In this document: one piece after another, positions 5,445 through 13,690 of the stretch | How the letters are laid out: each line of letters opens with the position of its first letter | How positions within the stretch are numbered: the stretch's first letter is position 1 | Assembly (NCBI RefSeq): GCF_012849375.1 | Contig: NZ_CP051684.1 | Span: 4,836,001-4,900,000, forward strand | Source: Duganella dendranthematis | Lineage (GTDB): Bacteria; Pseudomonadota; Gammaproteobacteria; Burkholderiales; Burkholderiaceae_D | Direction: 5' to 3' | DNA: 64,000 nucleotides | Notes under the pieces: model-generated | What the model was told of the DNA's origin: nothing | Databases searched by the model: none | What the model saw: only the letters and a program-made list of their open reading frames with translations | Translations under genes and position numbers: made by a program

Positions 5445-6389
5445 TCAGACTTCCTCGCGGCGGCGGCGCATGTAAATGGCGACCGCAATCATGGCCACGC
5501 CGGCGGCGGCGCCGATCCATACGCTGGCGTTGCCCAGCGTGCTCCACGACGCCTCGAAGATAATGGTCGACACCGATACGCCCGGTGTCTCCGGCGAGAC
5601 GCTCAGCGGCGGCTGGTCGAACCCGATCCACGCGCCCGGCACCACGCCCAGCAGGATACGGCTGGAGATGTGGCTGGCGAACCAGACCGCATCAACCCCG
5701 AAGTGCAGTGCTTTTTGCGCCCACACCAGCAGCAGCGTGGTGATGATCGGCGTGCCGACCGCCCACAGGAACACCTTGGAGCGCGCGATGCTCGACACCA
5801 TCAGCAGCCAGCCCACGGTCGGCAAGGCCCACAGGATGTACACCGGCAGCAGGGCGACCAGGCGCAGCGGCGTCAGGTAGAACTGCGGCGTCATCAGCAG
5901 CGCGCCGAACAGATTGGTGCCATGCATCGCCGCCAGGCCGCACAGGGCCAGCACCATCAGCAGCCCGACCGCGATGGCCACGCCCAGCGTGATCAGCGGC
6001 GCGACGACCAACGCCGTCACCAGCTTGGACAGCACGGTCATGCTGTCCGACACCGGCAGCGATTTCCAGAACAGCAGGCTGCGGTCGCGGCGCTCGTCGT
6101 GCAGCGCGCCGAGGCAGTAGAAGAACACCAGCAGGCCCAGGATCATCAGGATCGGCATGCCGGCCGTGACGTACATCTCGCCCATGGTTTCGACGATGCG
6201 GGTGCGCGCCGTGCCTTCGATGGTGACGCTGAGCGGCTGGTTGTATAGCCGGATGGTATCCAGGTTGCCGAAGATCAGGCCGGTGAGGATCAGGGTGACG
6301 ACGGCGCCGGCGATGACGATGGGCGTCCACAGCAGCATGCCCTTGTTTTCCCACATCTCGCGCTTGATCAGCCATTTCATGGTTTTCAT
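5445..6389 (-). CDS. ABC-2 type transporter permease
   Basis: A 314-residue integral membrane protein with about seven hydrophobic segments: one near residues 20-42, a pair at about 75-160 and several up to the C-terminus. A long periplasmic loop follows the first segment. This is the layout of ABC-2 permeases of the ABC-2 family partnered with YtrB-type ATPases. The C-terminus ends in arginines (YMRRRREEV), fitting a cytoplasmic tail. It starts 4 bases inside the ATPase gene end, so the two are translationally coupled. Substrate unknown; related Bacillus systems respond to cell-envelope antibiotics. Confidence 0.85.
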   Translation of the reverse strand: MKTMKWLIKREMWENKGMLLWTPIVIAGAVVTLILTGLIFGNLDTIRLYNQPLSVTIEGTARTRIVETMGEMYVTAGMPILMILGLLVFFYCLGALHDERRDRSLLFWKSLPVSDSMTVLSKLVTALVVAPLITLGVAIAVGLLMVLALCGLAAMHGTNLFGALLMTPQFYLTPLRLVALLPVYILWALPTVGWLLMVSSIARSKVFLWAVGTPIITTLLLVWAQKALHFGVDAVWFASHISSRILLGVVPGAWIGFDQPPLSVSPETPGVSVSTIIFEASWSTLGNASVWIGAAAGVAMIAVAIYMRRRREEV

Positions 6390-7243
6390 GCGTAGCTTCC
6401 TTTCATGGTCGCAACGAACAGGTCGGCCACGCTGGGCGTGCGCAGTTCGCCAAAATTGGACAGTTGTGCGCGGTTGGCGCCGTCAAACAGCATTACCGGC
6501 TTGCCGAACACGGTGCGCTGGCTCAGCGGTTGCAGCGCATTGGCGGCGGCGATGAATTGCGGCTCGACCATCACCTCGGTAAAGCGCTCGCCCACTTCAT
6601 CCATGGACGCCGACAGCGCGATCTTGCCGTTTTCGATGAACAGCAGGTCGGTGAGGATGTGCTCGACTTCCTCGATCTGGTGGGTAGTGATCAGGATAGT
6701 CTTGTTTTCGTCGAAGTAGTCTTCCAGCAGGTTCTGGTAGAACTGCTTGCGGTACAGGATGTCCAGCCCCAGCGTCGGCTCGTCCAGCACCAGCAGTTTG
6801 GCGTCGATCGCCATCACCAGCGCCAGGTGCAGTTGCACCACCATGCCCTTGGACATGGCCTTGACCTTCATGTTCGGCGTCAGCTTGGTGTTGGCGAGGT
6901 ATTTCTCGGCCTTGGCGCGGTTGAAGCGCGGATGCACGCCCTCGACAAAATCGATGGCGTCCTTGACCTTGAGCCAGCGCGGCAGGATGGCGACGTCGGC
7001 AATGAAGCAGACCTCGTTCATCAGCGCCTCGCGCTGCTGGCGCGGGTCCATGCCCAGCACCGACAGCTGGCCCTCGAACGGGGTCAGGCCGAGGATGGCC
7101 TTGAGGGTGGTGGTCTTGCCGGAACCGTTGGGGCCGATCAGGCCGACGATGCGGCCGGACTCCACCGTGAAGCTGACGTCGTCCAGCGCGGCCTGTTTGC
7201 CGTAGCGCTTGTTCAGGCCGCCGGCGGTGATGACGGCGCTCAT
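6386..7243 (-). CDS. ABC transporter ATP-binding protein, YtrB-like
   Basis: A 285-residue nucleotide-binding subunit. The Walker A motif is GPNGSGKTT near residue 37-45, Walker B with the D-loop is LLVLDEPTLGLD near 151-162, and the switch histidine is in ITTHQIEEVEH. The signature region reads MSKGMVVQLHL instead of the usual LSGGQ, which is common in the YtrB/BcrA-like branch. Together with the permease and the GntR regulator it forms a four-gene operon with overlapping ends. It should drive export by the adjacent permease. Confidence 0.92.
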   Translation of the reverse strand: MSAVITAGGLNKRYGKQAALDDVSFTVESGRIVGLIGPNGSGKTTTLKAILGLTPFEGQLSVLGMDPRQQREALMNEVCFIADVAILPRWLKVKDAIDFVEGVHPRFNRAKAEKYLANTKLTPNMKVKAMSKGMVVQLHLALVMAIDAKLLVLDEPTLGLDILYRKQFYQNLLEDYFDENKTILITTHQIEEVEHILTDLLFIENGKIALSASMDEVGERFTEVMVEPQFIAAANALQPLSQRTVFGKPVMLFDGANRAQLSNFGELRTPSVADLFVATMKGSYA

Positions 7244-7596
7244 GCCGCACCTCCGGCCGCCGGGGTCAACAGCGATTCGAGGTCCAGGCCCAGGCGGCGG
7301 ATGCGTTCCAGCACCACGGGCCAGTCTTCGCGCAGGAAGCGTTCGCGTTCGGTGGCCAGCAGTTTGTCGCGGGCGCCATCAGTCACATACATACCTATTC
7401 CCCTCCGTTTTTCGACCAGCGTTTCGTCCACCAGCTCCTGGTAGGCGCGCGAGACTGTGATTGGGTTGAGTTGATACTCGGCGGCGATCTGCCGCACCGA
7501 GGGCAGGGCATCGCCGGGCTTGAGCAAGCCGTCCAGCACCATGCCGACGACTTTGTCCTTGAGCTGCCGATAGATCGGCGCGTTGTCATTCCACAT
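7240..7596 (-). CDS. GntR family regulator, YtrA subfamily
   Basis: A 118-residue protein with an N-terminal GntR winged helix (residues 5-72: PIYRQLKDKVVGMVLDGLL, LPSVRQIAAEY, NPITVSRAYQEL) and only a short C-terminal helix region, which defines the YtrA subfamily. These repressors sit first in operons with ABC exporters and bind their own promoter. Here the gene leads the operon, overlaps the ATPase gene by 4 bases, and has an inverted repeat upstream at 7635-7654. Autorepression relieved by a drug or envelope signal is inferred from the family. Confidence 0.92.
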   Translation of the reverse strand: MWNDNAPIYRQLKDKVVGMVLDGLLKPGDALPSVRQIAAEYQLNPITVSRAYQELVDETLVEKRRGIGMYVTDGARDKLLATERERFLREDWPVVLERIRRLGLDLESLLTPAAGGAA

Positions 7597-7765: not shown

Positions 7766-8617
7766 ATGACTGCAAATAATATCGATCAGCGCCTCGGCAA
7801 TCTGATCACCCAACACGAAAGCGACATCCTGGCCATTTGGGCAGCCGATCTGGCGGGCAAGAGCTTCCGCAGCGACGAAGCGACCATGCAGCGCCACACG
7901 CGCCAGTTCCTGGCGCTGTTGCCGGCCGCCATCACCACCGGCGGCACCGCCGACACCAATCAGCGCCAGTGGGACGAAGTCCGCAACCTGCTGAGCGAAG
8001 TGTCGATCCAGCGCGCCAAGCAGGGGTCGACCCCGAACGACACCGCCACCTTCGTGTTTTCACTGAAGCAGCCAATGTTCACCATGTTGCGGCGCGAACT
8101 GGGCGCCGAATCGGTCGAGCTGGCCGACGCCTCGTGGGCGGTCAGCACCTTGCTCGACCAGCTGGGCCTGTACACGCTGGAAGTGTTCCAGAAAAGTCGC
8201 GACCAGATCATTGTGCGCCAGCAGCATGAGCTGATGGAACTGTCGACGCCGGTCGTCAAGCTGTGGCAGGACATCCTGGCGTTGCCGCTGATCGGCACGC
8301 TCGACAGCGCGCGCAGCCAAGTGGTGATGGAAAGCCTGCTGGAGAAAATCGTCGAAACCGGCGCCGCCATCGCCATCATCGACATCACCGGCGTGCCGAC
8401 CGTCGACACGCTGGTGGCGCAGCATCTGATGAAGACGATTGCCGCCGCGCGCCTGATGGGCGCCGACTGCATCATCAGCGGCATCCGTCCGCAGATCGCC
8501 CAGACCATCGTGCACCTTGGCGTCAATCTGGAGGACGTGGTGACCAAGGCGACGCTGGCCGACGCCTTTGTTGTGGCCCTGGCGCGCGTGGGCGCGACCA
8601 TCACTCGCAAGGCGTGA
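7766..8617 (+). CDS. rsbR: Stressosome scaffold protein RsbR
   Basis: A 283-residue RsbR-type protein. Residues 1-150 form an all-helical sensor domain of the non-haem globin type, and residues about 160-275 are a STAS domain. The STAS domain keeps the two conserved phosphoacceptor segments of RsbR proteins, IDITGVPTVDT and GIRPQIAQT. In Bacillus, RsbR and RsbS build the stressosome that sequesters the kinase RsbT. A good Shine-Dalgarno (AGGGGA) precedes the ATG. It is the first of six genes joined by overlaps or short gaps, and is divergent from the GntR operon. The stimulus sensed is unknown. Confidence 0.93.
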   Translation: MTANNIDQRLGNLITQHESDILAIWAADLAGKSFRSDEATMQRHTRQFLALLPAAITTGGTADTNQRQWDEVRNLLSEVSIQRAKQGSTPNDTATFVFSLKQPMFTMLRRELGAESVELADASWAVSTLLDQLGLYTLEVFQKSRDQIIVRQQHELMELSTPVVKLWQDILALPLIGTLDSARSQVVMESLLEKIVETGAAIAIIDITGVPTVDTLVAQHLMKTIAAARLMGADCIISGIRPQIAQTIVHLGVNLEDVVTKATLADAFVVALARVGATITRKA

Positions 8618-8624
8618 GCGCAGC

Positions 8625-8981
8625 ATGGAACGGATTCCTATTTTGCGGATTGGCGATCTGCTGCTGGTGACCATCCAGGTGGACATGCATGACAGCCTGG
8701 CCCTGACCTTGCAGGATGACCTGACCGAACGTATCGTCCGCGACAACGCCAAGGGCGTGCTGATCGACATTTCCGCGCTGGACCTGGTGGACTCGTTCAT
8801 CGGCCGCATGATCAGCAACACCGCCGCCATGGCGCGCGTGCTGGACGCCCAGACGGTGCTGGTCGGCATGCAGCCGGCGGTGGCGATTACGCTGGTGGAA
8901 CTTGGCCTGACGCTGCCCGGCGTGAAAACTGCATTGAATGTTGAAAAAGGCATGCAGTTGTTAGGAAAGAACTACGCGTGA
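8625..8981 (+). CDS. rsbS: Stressosome STAS protein RsbS
   Basis: A single STAS domain of 118 residues (MERIPILRIGDLLLVTIQVDM onward). It retains the serine segment LDLVDSFIG, equivalent to the site phosphorylated by RsbT in Bacillus RsbS, and the GMQPAVAITLVELGL stretch typical of RsbS. The ATG at 8625 lies 7 bases after the rsbR stop; a longer upstream frame would run over rsbR and is rejected. With RsbR it should form the stressosome core that holds RsbT in unstressed cells. Confidence 0.93.
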   Translation: MERIPILRIGDLLLVTIQVDMHDSLALTLQDDLTERIVRDNAKGVLIDISALDLVDSFIGRMISNTAAMARVLDAQTVLVGMQPAVAITLVELGLTLPGVKTALNVEKGMQLLGKNYA

Positions 8982-9448
8982 TGAGCCTCGCCTCGCCCGA
9001 CATCAGCCGCTACCCCTCGCCGTTGCTGACCAAGTACGCCAGCCAGGCCAGGCTGCACCAGGTGCTGCCGCTGGAAACCGACGAGCACGTGGTGGCGGTG
9101 CGCAAGGCGGTGCGCGAGCACGCCCTGGAATTAAAACTCAGCCTGGTGGAGCAGACCAAGCTGGTGACCGCCGCCAGCGAGCTGGCACGCAATACCATCA
9201 AGTACGGCGGTGGTGGCGTGGTGGTGCTGGAACGCCTGATCGACGGCCTGCGCAACGGGCTGCGGCTGGTGTTTGCCGACACCGGCCCCGGCATCGCCGA
9301 CATCGAACTGGCGCTGCGCGACGGCTACACCAGCGGCGGCGGCCTTGGTCTTGGACTGGGCGGCACCAAGCGCCTGGTTGATGATTTTCTGATTGATTCA
9401 CGCCCCAGCGAGGGCACTGCAGTAGCGATTATTAAATGGAAAATCTAA
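8981..9448 (+). CDS. rsbT: Serine/threonine kinase RsbT (GHKL switch protein)
   Basis: A 155-residue GHKL-fold kinase. The N box is intact (TAASELARNTIKYG), as are the ATP-binding G1 segment DTGPGI and the glycine-rich G2 segment GLGLGLGGTKRL. RsbT phosphorylates RsbS and RsbR, is released, and activates a downstream partner. The start ATG overlaps the rsbS stop as TGATG; a GTG one codon earlier is also possible. In Bacillus the partner is the phosphatase RsbU, which is absent here; the next gene has a PP2C domain but fused to its own GHKL domain. Confidence 0.93.
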   Translation: MSLASPDISRYPSPLLTKYASQARLHQVLPLETDEHVVAVRKAVREHALELKLSLVEQTKLVTAASELARNTIKYGGGGVVVLERLIDGLRNGLRLVFADTGPGIADIELALRDGYTSGGGLGLGLGGTKRLVDDFLIDSRPSEGTAVAIIKWKI

Positions 9449-10461
9449 GTAGTTCGCTGGCGCCCGCTGAATGGATCACCATCAGCCACGTCAGCGATGT
9501 CGGCGCCGCCCGGCGCAGCGGTCAGACCCTGGCCGAACAACTGGGCATGGGGGAGACGCGCGCCGGCCAGCTGGCGATCATCATTACTGAGGCCGCCAGC
9601 AACATCATCAAGCACGCCGGCGAGGGCCGGGTGCGAGTGAACATGGCCGCGCATGGCGGCCAGCGCTGTATCGAGGTGCTGGCGCTGGATAACGGTCCCG
9701 GCATCGGCAATCTGGCGCAGTCGATGCTGGACGGCGTGTCCAGCGCCGGCACCGCCGGCACCGGCCTGGGCGCGATGCGCCGGCTGGCCGATCAACTGGA
9801 CGTGTACGCGCCCGCCGGCAAGGGCACGGCGTTGTTCGCGCGCCTGTGGCTGGACCCGGCCGACGCCGCGCAGCCGGTCCGTTACGGCGGCGTTTGCCTG
9901 CCGCTGGCCGGTGAAACGGCCTGCGGCGACGCCTGGGCGGTGGCAGAACAACAAGGCCGCGTGGTGCTGTTGATGGCCGACGGCCTCGGTCACGGACCGG
10001 AAGCGGCCAAGGCCTCGGCGGCGGCAGTGCAGACGCTGACGGCCGAGCCCGGCTACGCGCCGCAGCGGCTGATGGAAGACTGCCACCAGGCGCTGCGGCC
10101 GACGCGCGGCGCCGCCATGGCAATTGGTGAGCTGGACCTGGCGGCGCGGCAGTTGCGTTTTGCCGGCGTCGGCAACATCGGCGCCAGCATCATCGACGAC
10201 GCCGCGCGGCGGCAACTGATGTCGCATAACGGCATCGTCGGCCACAATATGCGCAAGGTCAATGAGCTGGTGTTTGAGTGTCCGGCCGGCGCACTGGTGG
10301 TGCTGGCCAGCGACGGCATCACCACCCAGTGGGACCTCGCAGCCTATCCCGGCCTGGCGACACGCGAACCGGCGCTGATCGCCGGCGTGCTGCTGCGCGA
10401 CCACAGCCGCGGGCGCGACGACGCCAGCGTACTGGTAGTCAAGACCCTGGAGAACGTGTGA
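9436..10461 (+). CDS. GHKL ATPase fused to a PP2C/SpoIIE phosphatase (RsbX-like)
   Basis: A 341-residue protein with two domains. Residues 1-135 form an anti-sigma-type GHKL ATPase (N box TEAASNIIKHAG, G1 DNGPGIG, G2 AGTGLGAMRRL). Residues 150-340 form a PP2C/SpoIIE-like phosphatase with metal-binding segments (CGDAW, LLMADGLGHG, LASDGI, RDDASVLVV). RsbX-type phosphatases dephosphorylate stressosome STAS proteins and reset the complex, and that is the likely role. The fusion to a second RsbT-like domain is less usual. It overlaps rsbT by 13 bases and the next gene by 1. Confidence 0.88.
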   Translation: MENLSSSLAPAEWITISHVSDVGAARRSGQTLAEQLGMGETRAGQLAIIITEAASNIIKHAGEGRVRVNMAAHGGQRCIEVLALDNGPGIGNLAQSMLDGVSSAGTAGTGLGAMRRLADQLDVYAPAGKGTALFARLWLDPADAAQPVRYGGVCLPLAGETACGDAWAVAEQQGRVVLLMADGLGHGPEAAKASAAAVQTLTAEPGYAPQRLMEDCHQALRPTRGAAMAIGELDLAARQLRFAGVGNIGASIIDDAARRQLMSHNGIVGHNMRKVNELVFECPAGALVVLASDGITTQWDLAAYPGLATREPALIAGVLLRDHSRGRDDASVLVVKTLENV

Positions 10462-11789
10462 TGTCGTTTGTGCGCATATTGCAGGTCAACATAGGCAGCA
10501 CGCCGGACCTGGTGGCGGTGCGCCAGCGCGCGCGCCAGGTGGCCGGCCTGCTCAATTTCGGCGTGCAGGACCAGGTGCGGATTGCCACGGCGGTGTCGGA
10601 AGTGGCGCGCTGCGCCTACGGCCGGCTGGAGGGCGGCCGCGCCACCTTCGCCGTCAATGTGCGGGAACAACCGCCGCAGCTCAAGGTCATCATCAGCGCC
10701 GAAGGCGCCGAGCGTCCGCACGCCACCGTTGATGGCGAGGCGGCTACGCCGCAGCTGGCCGGCGCGCAGCTGACGGCGCAACGGCTGATGGACAACTGCA
10801 CCATCGTCAGCGCCACGGCGCTGGAGTTGAAGGTGGAGATGAACAAGAGCTTGCCGGCGCAGCCGGGCCGCGCCGCGGTGGATCTGGCGCAGGTCGGCGC
10901 GCAACTGGTGGCCACGCCGATCCAGAGCACGTATTCGGAAATCGAACAGCAAAACCGTGAGCTGGCGCAGGCGCTGGCCGAACTGCGCGAGCGCCAGGAC
11001 GACTTGCTGGCGCTGACGCGCGAACTGGAAGACACCAACCGCGGCGTGGTGGCGCTGTACGCCGAGATCGAGGAAAAGGCCGAGCGCCTGCGCAAGGCCG
11101 ACGAAATGAAATCGCGCTTCCTGTCCAACACCAGCCACGAGCTGCGCACGCCGCTGAGCTCGATCCGCGCGCTGAGCAAGCTGCTGCTGGACCGCATGGA
11201 CGGCCCGCTGACCGAGGAGCAGGAGCGCCAGGTGGCGTTTATCGCCAGCGCCGCCGGCGACCTGTCGGAACTGGTAAACGACCTGCTGGACCTGGCCAAG
11301 ATCGAGGCCGGCAAGGTGGACGTGACGCTGTCGCCGGTTGAGGTCGGCGCGATGTTCAGCGCGCTCAAGGGCATGCTGCGGCCGTTGACGCGTGATGCGC
11401 CGGTCGAGCTGGTGTTCGTCGAGCCGCCGCCGCTGACCTTGATGTCGGACGAAGGTAAGGTCACGCAAATCCTGCGCAACTTCATCTCCAATGCGCTCAA
11501 GTTTACCGAGGAAGGTCAGGTGGTGGTGCAGCTGCTGGACGAGGGCGAAGACCACGTGACATTCGCCGTCACCGACAGCGGCATCGGCATCAGTGCCGAC
11601 AACCAGCAATTGATTTTTGAAGAATTCAGCCAGATTGCGCACCCGCTTCAACGGCGCGCCAAAGGCACCGGACTGGGCCTGCCGCTGTGCCGCAAGCTGG
11701 CCACGTTGCTCGGCGGCACGGTGGATGTGTCCAGTGCCGAGGGCAGCGGTTCGACGTTTTATCTGCGGCTGCCGGCCGCCTCCCCATGA
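10461..11789 (+). CDS. Histidine kinase with N-terminal RsbT-like domain
   Basis: A 442-residue sensor kinase without membrane segments. Residues 1-130 align by eye with RsbT, but the N-box asparagine is replaced by cysteine (SEVARC, Cys51), so this copy may not bind ATP. A coiled coil follows (about 155-215), then HisKA with phosphoacceptor His226 in SNTSHELRTPLSS, and HATPase_c with the N box NFISNALKF, DSGIGI and GTGLGLPLCRKL. The likely job is to read stressosome state and pass phosphate to the response regulator domain of the next protein. The ATG overlaps the previous stop (TGATG). Confidence 0.9.
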   Translation: MSFVRILQVNIGSTPDLVAVRQRARQVAGLLNFGVQDQVRIATAVSEVARCAYGRLEGGRATFAVNVREQPPQLKVIISAEGAERPHATVDGEAATPQLAGAQLTAQRLMDNCTIVSATALELKVEMNKSLPAQPGRAAVDLAQVGAQLVATPIQSTYSEIEQQNRELAQALAELRERQDDLLALTRELEDTNRGVVALYAEIEEKAERLRKADEMKSRFLSNTSHELRTPLSSIRALSKLLLDRMDGPLTEEQERQVAFIASAAGDLSELVNDLLDLAKIEAGKVDVTLSPVEVGAMFSALKGMLRPLTRDAPVELVFVEPPPLTLMSDEGKVTQILRNFISNALKFTEEGQVVVQLLDEGEDHVTFAVTDSGIGISADNQQLIFEEFSQIAHPLQRRAKGTGLGLPLCRKLATLLGGTVDVSSAEGSGSTFYLRLPAASP

Positions 11790-13690
11790 ACAAGGATACC
11801 GTCATGGACAACAGCTCTATTCTGATACTGAATGTGGACGACAACGATGGCGCGCGTTACGTCAAGACGCGCATCCTGCTGAGCGCCGGCTTCCGCGTGA
11901 TCGAAGCCGCCAATGGCACCGACGCGCTGGAGATGGCGCGCAAGGAGGCGCCTGCGCTGGTGCTGCTGGACGTTAAGCTGCCCGACATCAGCGGCATCGA
12001 AGTGTGCCGCCGCATCAAGTCCGACGTCGCCACCTGCACGGTGCTGGTACTGCAAACCTCGGCCGCGCTGATCGGCCGCGACGACAAGATCCGCGGCCTG
12101 GACGGTGGCGCCGACAATTACCTGGCGGCGCCGATCGAGGCCGACGAACTGATCGCCAACGTCAACGCCTTGCTGCGGCTGCAACGCACCCAGGCGGACC
12201 TGCGCAACAGCGAGGAACGCTTCCGCCAGCTGGCCGAAAACATCGAGGACGTGTTCTGGATGTTCAATATCAGCGACCAGCGATTGCTGTACGCCAGTCC
12301 GGCCTACGAGCGCCTGTTCGGCCGCCCGCTGGCGCAGCTGCAGCAGACGCCGGACGACTGGCTGGAAGCGGTCCATCCGGAGGACCGCCAGTTGGTGCAG
12401 GCCGACTGGCAAGCCTTCCTGAGCGAGGGCCATTACGACCAGGAATTCCGGCTCGGCGAGGAAGGTTCGGTGCGCTGGGTGCGCGACCGCGCTTTCCTGG
12501 TGCGCGACGACCAGCAGCAGCCGTACCGCGTGGCCCGCATCAGCAGCGACATCAGCGAACGCAAGAACATGGAGGCGCTGCTGCGCCAGGCGGACGAGCA
12601 CAAGAACGATTTCCTGGCCACGCTGGCGCACGAGCTGCGTAATCCGCTCAGTCCGATCCGCAACGCGGTCACGCTGATGAACACGGTGCCGGCCACGCAG
12701 GCCGAGGTGCACCAGCGCGCGCGTGACGTGATCCTGCGCCAGGTCGGTCACCTGACCCATCTGGTGGATGATTTGCTGGACGTGGCGCGCATCTCGCAAG
12801 GCAAGCTGACCTTGCGGCAGCAGGATGTGGAGCTGCATGCGGTGATCGAGCCGGCCGTCGAGACCGTGAAGGCGCTGATTGAATCGCGCGGCCACCGGCT
12901 GCGCGTCGATGTGCCGCCGCAGCCGGTGTGGCTGCATGGCGATCCGGTGCGGCTGTCGCAGATCCTTGGCAACCTGCTGCACAACGCCGCCAAGTTCACC
13001 GACCCCGGTGGCGAAATTTCGCTGAACGTCACGCTGCCGCAGACCGACCGCATCCGCATCGCGGTAGGGGACAACGGCATCGGCATCACCTCGTACAACC
13101 TGGCGCGCATCTTTGGCATGTTCACGCAAGGCGCCTCGACGCGCGACCGCATGCACGACGGCCTCGGCATCGGCTTGTCGCTGGTGTCCAAGCTGGTGGA
13201 CATGCATGGCGGCCGAGTGGAAGCCTATAGCGACGGTATCGGCAAAGGCAGCACCTTTGTGCTGGAATTCCCGTTGCAGCTGCCGGCGGTGGTGGTGCCT
13301 GCTGCCGTTGTGGAACCGGCCGTGCCGGGCAGCCTGCGCCTGCTGCTGGTGGACGATAACGTCGACTCGGTCAGCGTGATGGCGGAGTTGTTGAAGATGA
13401 TGGGGCACGACGTGGTCACCGCCAACAACGCCGAGGACGCACTGACGCTGGCCCGCGCGCACCAGCCGGAAACCATCGTGCTCGACCTCGGCCTGCCGGG
13501 CATCGACGGCTACACGCTGGCGCGCATGCTGCGGGCCGAGCCGGCTTTCGCGCATACGCGGCTGATCGCTCACACCGGCTACGGCTCCGACCAGGACCGT
13601 GAACGCAGCCGCGCGGCCGGCTTCGACTATCACCTGGTCAAGCCGGCCAGGTTCGACGACCTGGAGCAGGCGCTACAGCCCCAGCGCTGA
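11786..13690 (+). CDS. Hybrid histidine kinase, REC-PAS-HisKA-HATPase-REC
   Basis: A 634-residue cytoplasmic protein. The first receiver domain spans about 8-125 with Asp62 in LLDVKLPD. A PAS domain lies at about 140-265, HisKA with His282 in LAHELRNPLSPI, HATPase_c with DNGIGI and GLGIGLSLVSKL, and a second receiver at about 512-630 (LLLVDDNVDS, VLDLGLPG). It starts at an ATGA overlap with the preceding kinase and ends the operon. The N-terminal receiver is a natural phosphate acceptor for that kinase. No DNA-binding output domain is present, so a further partner is needed. It overlaps the convergent DUF72 gene by 18 bases. Confidence 0.92.
   Translation: MNKDTVMDNSSILILNVDDNDGARYVKTRILLSAGFRVIEAANGTDALEMARKEAPALVLLDVKLPDISGIEVCRRIKSDVATCTVLVLQTSAALIGRDDKIRGLDGGADNYLAAPIEADELIANVNALLRLQRTQADLRNSEERFRQLAENIEDVFWMFNISDQRLLYASPAYERLFGRPLAQLQQTPDDWLEAVHPEDRQLVQADWQAFLSEGHYDQEFRLGEEGSVRWVRDRAFLVRDDQQQPYRVARISSDISERKNMEALLRQADEHKNDFLATLAHELRNPLSPIRNAVTLMNTVPATQAEVHQRARDVILRQVGHLTHLVDDLLDVARISQGKLTLRQQDVELHAVIEPAVETVKALIESRGHRLRVDVPPQPVWLHGDPVRLSQILGNLLHNAAKFTDPGGEISLNVTLPQTDRIRIAVGDNGIGITSYNLARIFGMFTQGASTRDRMHDGLGIGLSLVSKLVDMHGGRVEAYSDGIGKGSTFVLEFPLQLPAVVVPAAVVEPAVPGSLRLLLVDDNVDSVSVMAELLKMMGHDVVTANNAEDALTLARAHQPETIVLDLGLPGIDGYTLARMLRAEPAFAHTRLIAHTGYGSDQDRERSRAAGFDYHLVKPARFDDLEQALQPQR

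Follow-up and report, generated by a model that had tools for sequence, protein, structure and literature searches.

In Bacillus subtilis, the kinase RsbT phosphorylates the RsbR and RsbS proteins of the stressosome core and then departs to bind RsbU. Stressosomes with two-component outputs have been published (PMC9237108, PMC10014275, PMC3360785), among them rsbRSTX-VvD1-VvD2 of Vibrio vulnificus (PMC9237108, PMC10014275), and stressosome operons encoding histidine kinases with the RsbT receptor domain RsbU_N are also known (PMC9237108, Fig. 3 legend; PMC12143880). According to the Vibrio study, the majority of the downstream proteins considered there lack RsbU_N (PMC9237108). How stressosomes without RsbU_N targets pass the signal on is the question addressed here, with a locus of Duganella dendranthematis at positions 7766-13690 of a 64,000-nucleotide stretch of its genome (the window).

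The locus combines rsbR, rsbS, rsbT and an rsbX-like gene with two histidine kinase genes, and the N-terminal domain of the first kinase is, judged from its sequence, a relative of RsbT/RsbW/SpoIIAB. We propose, with a probability of roughly 0.46, a stressosome with a two-component phosphorelay output in which the kinase would be docked on the STAS core via its own RsbT-like domain and released on phosphorylation. Direct docking is favored because the genome lacks RsbU_N and the kinase bears a relative of RsbT. All six open reading frames were confirmed, each with Pfam backing:

7766..8617, plus strand: rsbR; RsbRD_N (71 bits) and STAS (54 bits), Pfam
8625..8981, plus strand: rsbS; single STAS domain, Pfam
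8981..9448, plus strand: rsbT, serine/threonine switch kinase; HATPase_c/HATPase_c_2, Pfam; an alternative GTG start is possible at 8978
9436..10461, plus strand: rsbX-like GHKL-PP2C phosphatase; HATPase_c_2 and SpoIIE (46.8 bits)
10461..11789, plus strand: cytoplasmic histidine kinase; RsbT-like domain, linker, HisKA and HATPase_c
10461..10872, plus strand: RsbT/RsbW-like N-terminal domain of the histidine kinase (kinase residues 1-135)
10980..11090, plus strand: conserved kinase linker between the RsbT-like domain and HisKA, sequence ELRERQDDLLALTRELEDTNRGVVALYAEIEEKAERL
11786..13690, plus strand: hybrid kinase; REC-PAS-HisKA-HATPase_c-REC (REC, receiver domain), Pfam

The first-pass annotation had described six genes with overlapping ends, which agrees with the gene number, the Pfam content and four of the five junctions (overlaps of 1, 13, 1 and 4 bases) but not with rsbR and rsbS, which are separated by 7 bases. 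A promoter and terminator scan of the locus, which returned no promoter-like sites and 5 terminator-like sites against 4.5 expected, was uninformative. On the minus strand at 6386-7596, divergent from rsbR, lie genes that by eye from their translations resemble an ATP-binding cassette transporter ATPase and a GntR-type regulator.

The module and its core across genomes

Among 294 genomes of the Oxalobacteraceae, RsbS was matched in 114 (E<=1e-8) and the N-terminal domain of the kinase in 112 (E<=1e-3). Two types can be told apart among the RsbS matches, one in 102 genomes at 79-100% identity and the other in 12 at 40-49%. The synteny across the family that the first-pass annotation proposed to look for was found in the first type for the first of the two kinases: RsbS and the kinase domain share contig and strand, at a distance of 1,814-1,996 bases, in 101 of the 102 genomes, and RsbR, RsbS, RsbT, the GHKL-PP2C protein and the kinase are all present in 30/30 annotated first-type loci, which were selected by kinase match. 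In the exception (G091), the two lie on different contigs. One genome (G224) has a second first-type RsbS near a contig end without a strong kinase match, and this copy was left out of the genome count. Second-type genomes account for ten of the 112 kinase-domain matches, all weak (E 1e-9 to 1e-3) and located just downstream of rsbS, which is the position of rsbT.

The kinase N-terminus plus linker was then used as query against a collection of 84,980 genomes of named species. The named loci discussed below are the best 80 of 489 relatives; ranked by similarity to a Janthinobacterium sequence, they are a non-random sample, drawn partly from the same genomes as the family set. The order R-S-T-X-kinase is kept on one strand in 78 of them, an arrangement far beyond chance; the exceptions are a locus cut off upstream (L163) and one with the kinase ahead of rsbR (L174). 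Their labels include Oxalobacteraceae, Burkholderia, Methylophilus, Cellvibrio, Nitrospira, Bryobacteraceae, Rokubacteria, Verrucomicrobiaceae, Chlorobiota, Planctomycetota and Cyanobacteria, although many of these are metagenome-assembled genomes and the taxon labels are taken as given. Rather than being peculiar to a single betaproteobacterium, the build is a widespread module.

It could be argued that the kinases are mere neighbors of the stressosome genes, with no functional coupling. Such a preserved order and linkage make this very improbable, as does the correlation of kinase-domain with RsbT distances over 32 loci (Mantel r 0.41, 0/999 permutations). The corresponding values were r 0.34 (0/999) for RsbT against the phosphatase and a modest r 0.25 (12/999) for the kinase domain against the GHKL domain of the phosphatase.

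The stressosome core looks chemically complete, and RsbT would still be able to phosphorylate it. Residues T215 and T247 of RsbR, which by motif match by eye correspond to T171 and T205 of B. subtilis (site names from papers), are invariant in 111/111 aligned rows (93/93 distinct), one row being a stand-alone RsbR paralogue (L096). S57 of RsbS, matched likewise to B. subtilis S59, is invariant in 110/110 rows (99/99 distinct). Some genomes occur twice among the rows, and duplicates are removed from the distinct counts. RsbT, which matches SpoIIAB in a PDB search, has intact kinase boxes (E45, N49, D78, G80, G82, G99, G101 and G103 in 108/108 rows, 104/104 distinct; numbered as B. subtilis RsbT), and the acidic metal residues D165, D182, D293 and D329 of the phosphatase are kept in 110/110 rows. 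The sequence features expected of an RSTX module are present: the RsbR threonines, the RsbS serine, the RsbT boxes and a PP2C gene adjoining rsbT, whose product departs from the usual RsbX by its fused N-terminal GHKL domain. With catalytic and phospho-acceptor residues intact and the gene order with the kinases conserved, the earlier description of a complete stressosome core coupled to a two-component output is supported.

The N-terminal domain of the output kinase

Kinase residues 1-150 had no Pfam match at E<=10, and a Pfam scan of the protein found no RsbU_N. Residues 1-135 have a GHKL fold nearer to that of the switch kinases than to the ATPase domains of histidine kinases. Among named relatives, the closest come from Duganella (for example P0004, with 76% across residues 1-150). 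A C-terminal receiver, present in 70 of the 80 named relatives, is missing from the window kinase. The linker that follows the domain is exceptionally conserved and would form a helical coiled coil.

RsbW and SpoIIAB domains can dimerize, and the RsbT-like domain might accordingly be a mere dimerization or nucleotide-sensing input of a kinase that belongs to the pathway but contacts neither RsbT nor the core. Consistent with this, N49, D78 and G82 are all retained in 94 of 230 relatives of the domain, and the domain is ATP-competent in 80/80 named loci. The window domain, however, lacks the N and G boxes for ATP (N49 to C, D78 to A, G82 to E, G101 and G103 to A), N49 and D78 are both gone in 113/230 relatives, and the same is seen in 15/30 Oxalobacteraceae loci as well as in the window. 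We compared the 94 ATP-competent with the 113 ATP-lost versions, numbered as B. subtilis RsbT, leaving aside 23 rows intermediate between the two and 5 stand-alone loci; the rows are related, and the counts are not independent. Thirty-six positions are at least 95% conserved in the ATP-competent set, and 15 of these stay so in the ATP-lost set (D14, V16, R19, Q20, R21, R23, Q36, R38, T41, S44, E45, R48, L110, D112 and K130), the same 15 when duplicates are removed (91 and 109 rows). Residues of helix 1 and helix 2 are among those retained. Conservation is lost at N49, D78, G82, G99, G101 and G103, while R19-R21, R23, Q36 and R48 are invariant in the ATP-lost domains. An interaction surface fits this pattern better, which makes a purely dimerizing or nucleotide-sensing role improbable.

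On this sequence evidence, an interaction face for one partner or another appears to outlive the loss of ATP binding in the kinase domain. R19 corresponds to R20 of SpoIIAB, which together with T49 and E104 is essential for SpoIIAA binding (PMC4166321).

Signal transfer from the core to the kinases

The genome, 6.53 Mb in one contig, was scanned for parts of a sigma-B cascade. RsbU_N had no match at E<=0.1, and none of eight SigBFG matches was over the cut-off; the pairing of an RsbU_N protein with a SigB-type sigma factor is thus not found in the genome. The first-pass annotation had noted that RsbU, RsbV, RsbW and a sigma factor were absent nearby. For RsbU_N and over-cut-off SigBFG this extends to the whole genome, and for RsbV and RsbW it applies to the operon, where none was found. 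SpoIIE occurs in three places, one of them the module locus, STAS in seven, two of them the module locus, and HATPase_c_2 in 51, of which 18 are over the cut-off and few were inspected. A lone STAS frame of 105 amino acids is located at C1:2823442.

At rest, the RsbT-like domain of the kinase would sit on the STAS domains of RsbS and RsbR in the fashion of RsbT. Upon stress, RsbT would phosphorylate RsbR (T215/T247) and RsbS (S57), and the STAS sites would release the kinase, which could then pair via its conserved linker, autophosphorylate and act as phosphate donor for the hybrid kinase. Resetting of the core would fall to the GHKL-PP2C protein. Docking, release on phosphorylation and the phosphate route are all predictions.

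The first-pass annotation had instead suggested that RsbT, once released, targets the GHKL-fused kinase. RsbT freed from the core would then bind the kinase directly, at the RsbT-like domain or the linker, and activate it as it does RsbU. Free RsbT retains R19 and R23 (108/108) and D92 (107/108), which are RsbU contacts in B. subtilis, and the conservation of the kinase linker recalls that RsbT works on the coiled-coil linker of RsbU (PMC12143880). Canonical RsbTs, too, resemble free RsbT more closely than they do the kinase domain. On the other hand, RsbU_N is missing from the kinase and from the genome, the kinase carries a relative of RsbT and not of its receptor, and, in the Vibrio study, an interaction of VvRsbT with VvD1, a kinase of another build, was not detected (PMC9237108). 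The retained contacts thus speak for the suggestion, but the built-in RsbT-like domain makes docking on STAS domains at least as likely, and direct activation by RsbT is a serious yet rather doubtful alternative.

Several findings weigh against docking on the STAS core or the kinship behind it. The face of RsbT that meets RsbU includes R19, R23 and N24 (PMC12143880), and retention of R19 and R23 need not by itself point to STAS binding, as both contact RsbU too. R19 is the only one of the three SpoIIAA-contact residues traced in the kinase domain. At D92, a contact to the RsbU linker kept by free RsbT, the kinase domain has Gly in 93/94 ATP-competent forms. A PDB profile search with the kinase domain ranks the ATPase domain of WalK (E 0.0019, partial) above RsbW (0.0088), and the C-terminal ATPase part of the kinase matches the GHKL domain of the phosphatase at 3.3e-5; GHKL domains generally resemble each other. 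Canonical and sister-type RsbTs prefer the free-RsbT profile over the kinase-domain profile in 13/13 cases, by 0.4 to 30 bits (139.0 against 138.6 bits for B. subtilis RsbT; 104 against 74 at the extreme; for L214-L218, the second of two RsbT-like genes was scored). Finally, of 19 apparently stand-alone kinase loci inspected, L212 and L213 proved to be full modules, and 15 of the other 17 have no STAS gene nearby in searches with the profiles of this module.

The 13/13 preference also led us to reject the reverse assignment, with the kinase domain as true RsbT and the free protein as its paralogue; a tree leaves the canonical RsbT sequences unresolved. Stand-alone kinases were likewise set aside as evidence for STAS pairing, as an RsbR gene adjoins only 2 of the 17. 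In these two (L096:6018-8521 and L207:4240-6743), the kinase gene lies beside that of an RsbR paralogue and is oriented divergently from it, and no RsbS or RsbT was found there. The Duganella genome itself has a second, stand-alone histidine kinase with an RsbT-like N-terminal domain (L057:6029-7369; C1:4548528-4549868, minus strand). No STAS gene was found near it, and its input could come from the stressosome of the module.

The phosphate route to the hybrid kinase is suggested by gene order. With a strict filter on position, a receiver-first protein follows the kinase in 69 of the 80 named loci, and annotation adds a further 9; it is missing from L171 (contig end) and L174. In L075:5806-7346, the hybrid kinase gene is split over two frames (213 and 300 amino acids), where sequencing error and decay are not distinguished. 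Receivers usually have Lys-Pro at a site where the first receiver of the Duganella hybrid (window 12125-12133) has Ala-Pro, with Ala115 replacing the usual Lys. Among 100 module proteins (L062, L076 and L096 excluded as non-module proteins), this site holds Glu in 73, Ala in 21, another residue or a gap in 6 and Lys in none. The first receiver is thus atypical by sequence, and its phosphorylation by the kinase, as earlier proposed, fits the acceptor Asp kept in 98/100 proteins but calls for caution because the usual Lys is absent in 100/100. The second receiver is a fair alternative phosphate target.

More tentatively than for docking itself, the module may represent a second, old wiring mode in which the output kinase is itself a client of the stressosome, anchored to the STAS core through an RsbT paralogue of its own. 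The jobs of RsbT would be split, free RsbT phosphorylating the core and the kinase-fused copy serving as the released messenger, and in Duganella-like bacteria this copy would be a pseudokinase kept only for docking. The module would then offer a concrete physical answer to signaling without RsbU_N, in a widespread group with cultured members.

Sister modules and known systems

Eleven of the 12 second-type loci (all except G064) were compared. Five end in a kinase of ~350 amino acids; two of these five were scanned, and both have RsbU_N over the cut-off (L215, 32.9 bits; L217, 27.7 bits). Six run into a protein of about 870-1,000 amino acids, and the two scanned contain PAS, GAF, GGDEF and EAL domains with an RsbU_N that is weak (about 21 bits) and falls short of the cut-off in the protein scan. 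The one RsbR scanned from these six (L219) has a protoglobin sensor. Over the whole family set, RsbU_N is over the cut-off in 12/294 genomes, 11 second-type and one first-type (G116, on another contig). In the sister stressosomes of L214-L218, two RsbT-like genes in a row precede a gene for a single-domain PP2C, an arrangement that looks like the GHKL-PP2C protein in unfused form.

Compared with rsbRSTUVW-sigB-rsbX of B. subtilis, the Duganella module shares RsbR, RsbS, RsbT and a PP2C feedback phosphatase, but its genome has neither an RsbU_N protein nor an over-cut-off SigBFG-type sigma factor, and the output is two-component. It differs from the SpoIIAB/RsbW anti-sigma kinases in that its domain is fused to a histidine kinase and, in the lineage of the window, has lost ATP-site residues. 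The V. vulnificus system is alike in having an R-S-T-X core followed by two-component genes, without RsbU or sigma-B. As described in the accessible parts of those reports, however, its RsbR has a heme globin sensor (RsbRD_N in Duganella), its X a single-domain PP2C (fused to a GHKL domain in Duganella), and VvD1 lacks RsbU_N with no RsbT-like domain mentioned.

No stressosome histidine kinase with an RsbT-like domain was mentioned in the literature and passages searched, although the Pane-Farre reviews (2005, 2017), which lay beyond the reach of that search, may describe one. Such a domain on the output kinase thus appears to be a new feature within the known stressosome/two-component kind. 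The RsbU_N kinases, both published ones and those of L195, L215 and L217, are alike in having an N-terminal wiring domain and the same operon position after the stressosome. In the latter three, this domain is the RsbT receptor (27.7, 32.9 and 37.1 bits), whereas the Duganella kinase carries a relative of RsbT. By sequence comparison, output proteins within one bacterial family thus carry either the receptor of RsbT or a domain related to RsbT, its ligand, a swap at the point where the stressosome meets its output.
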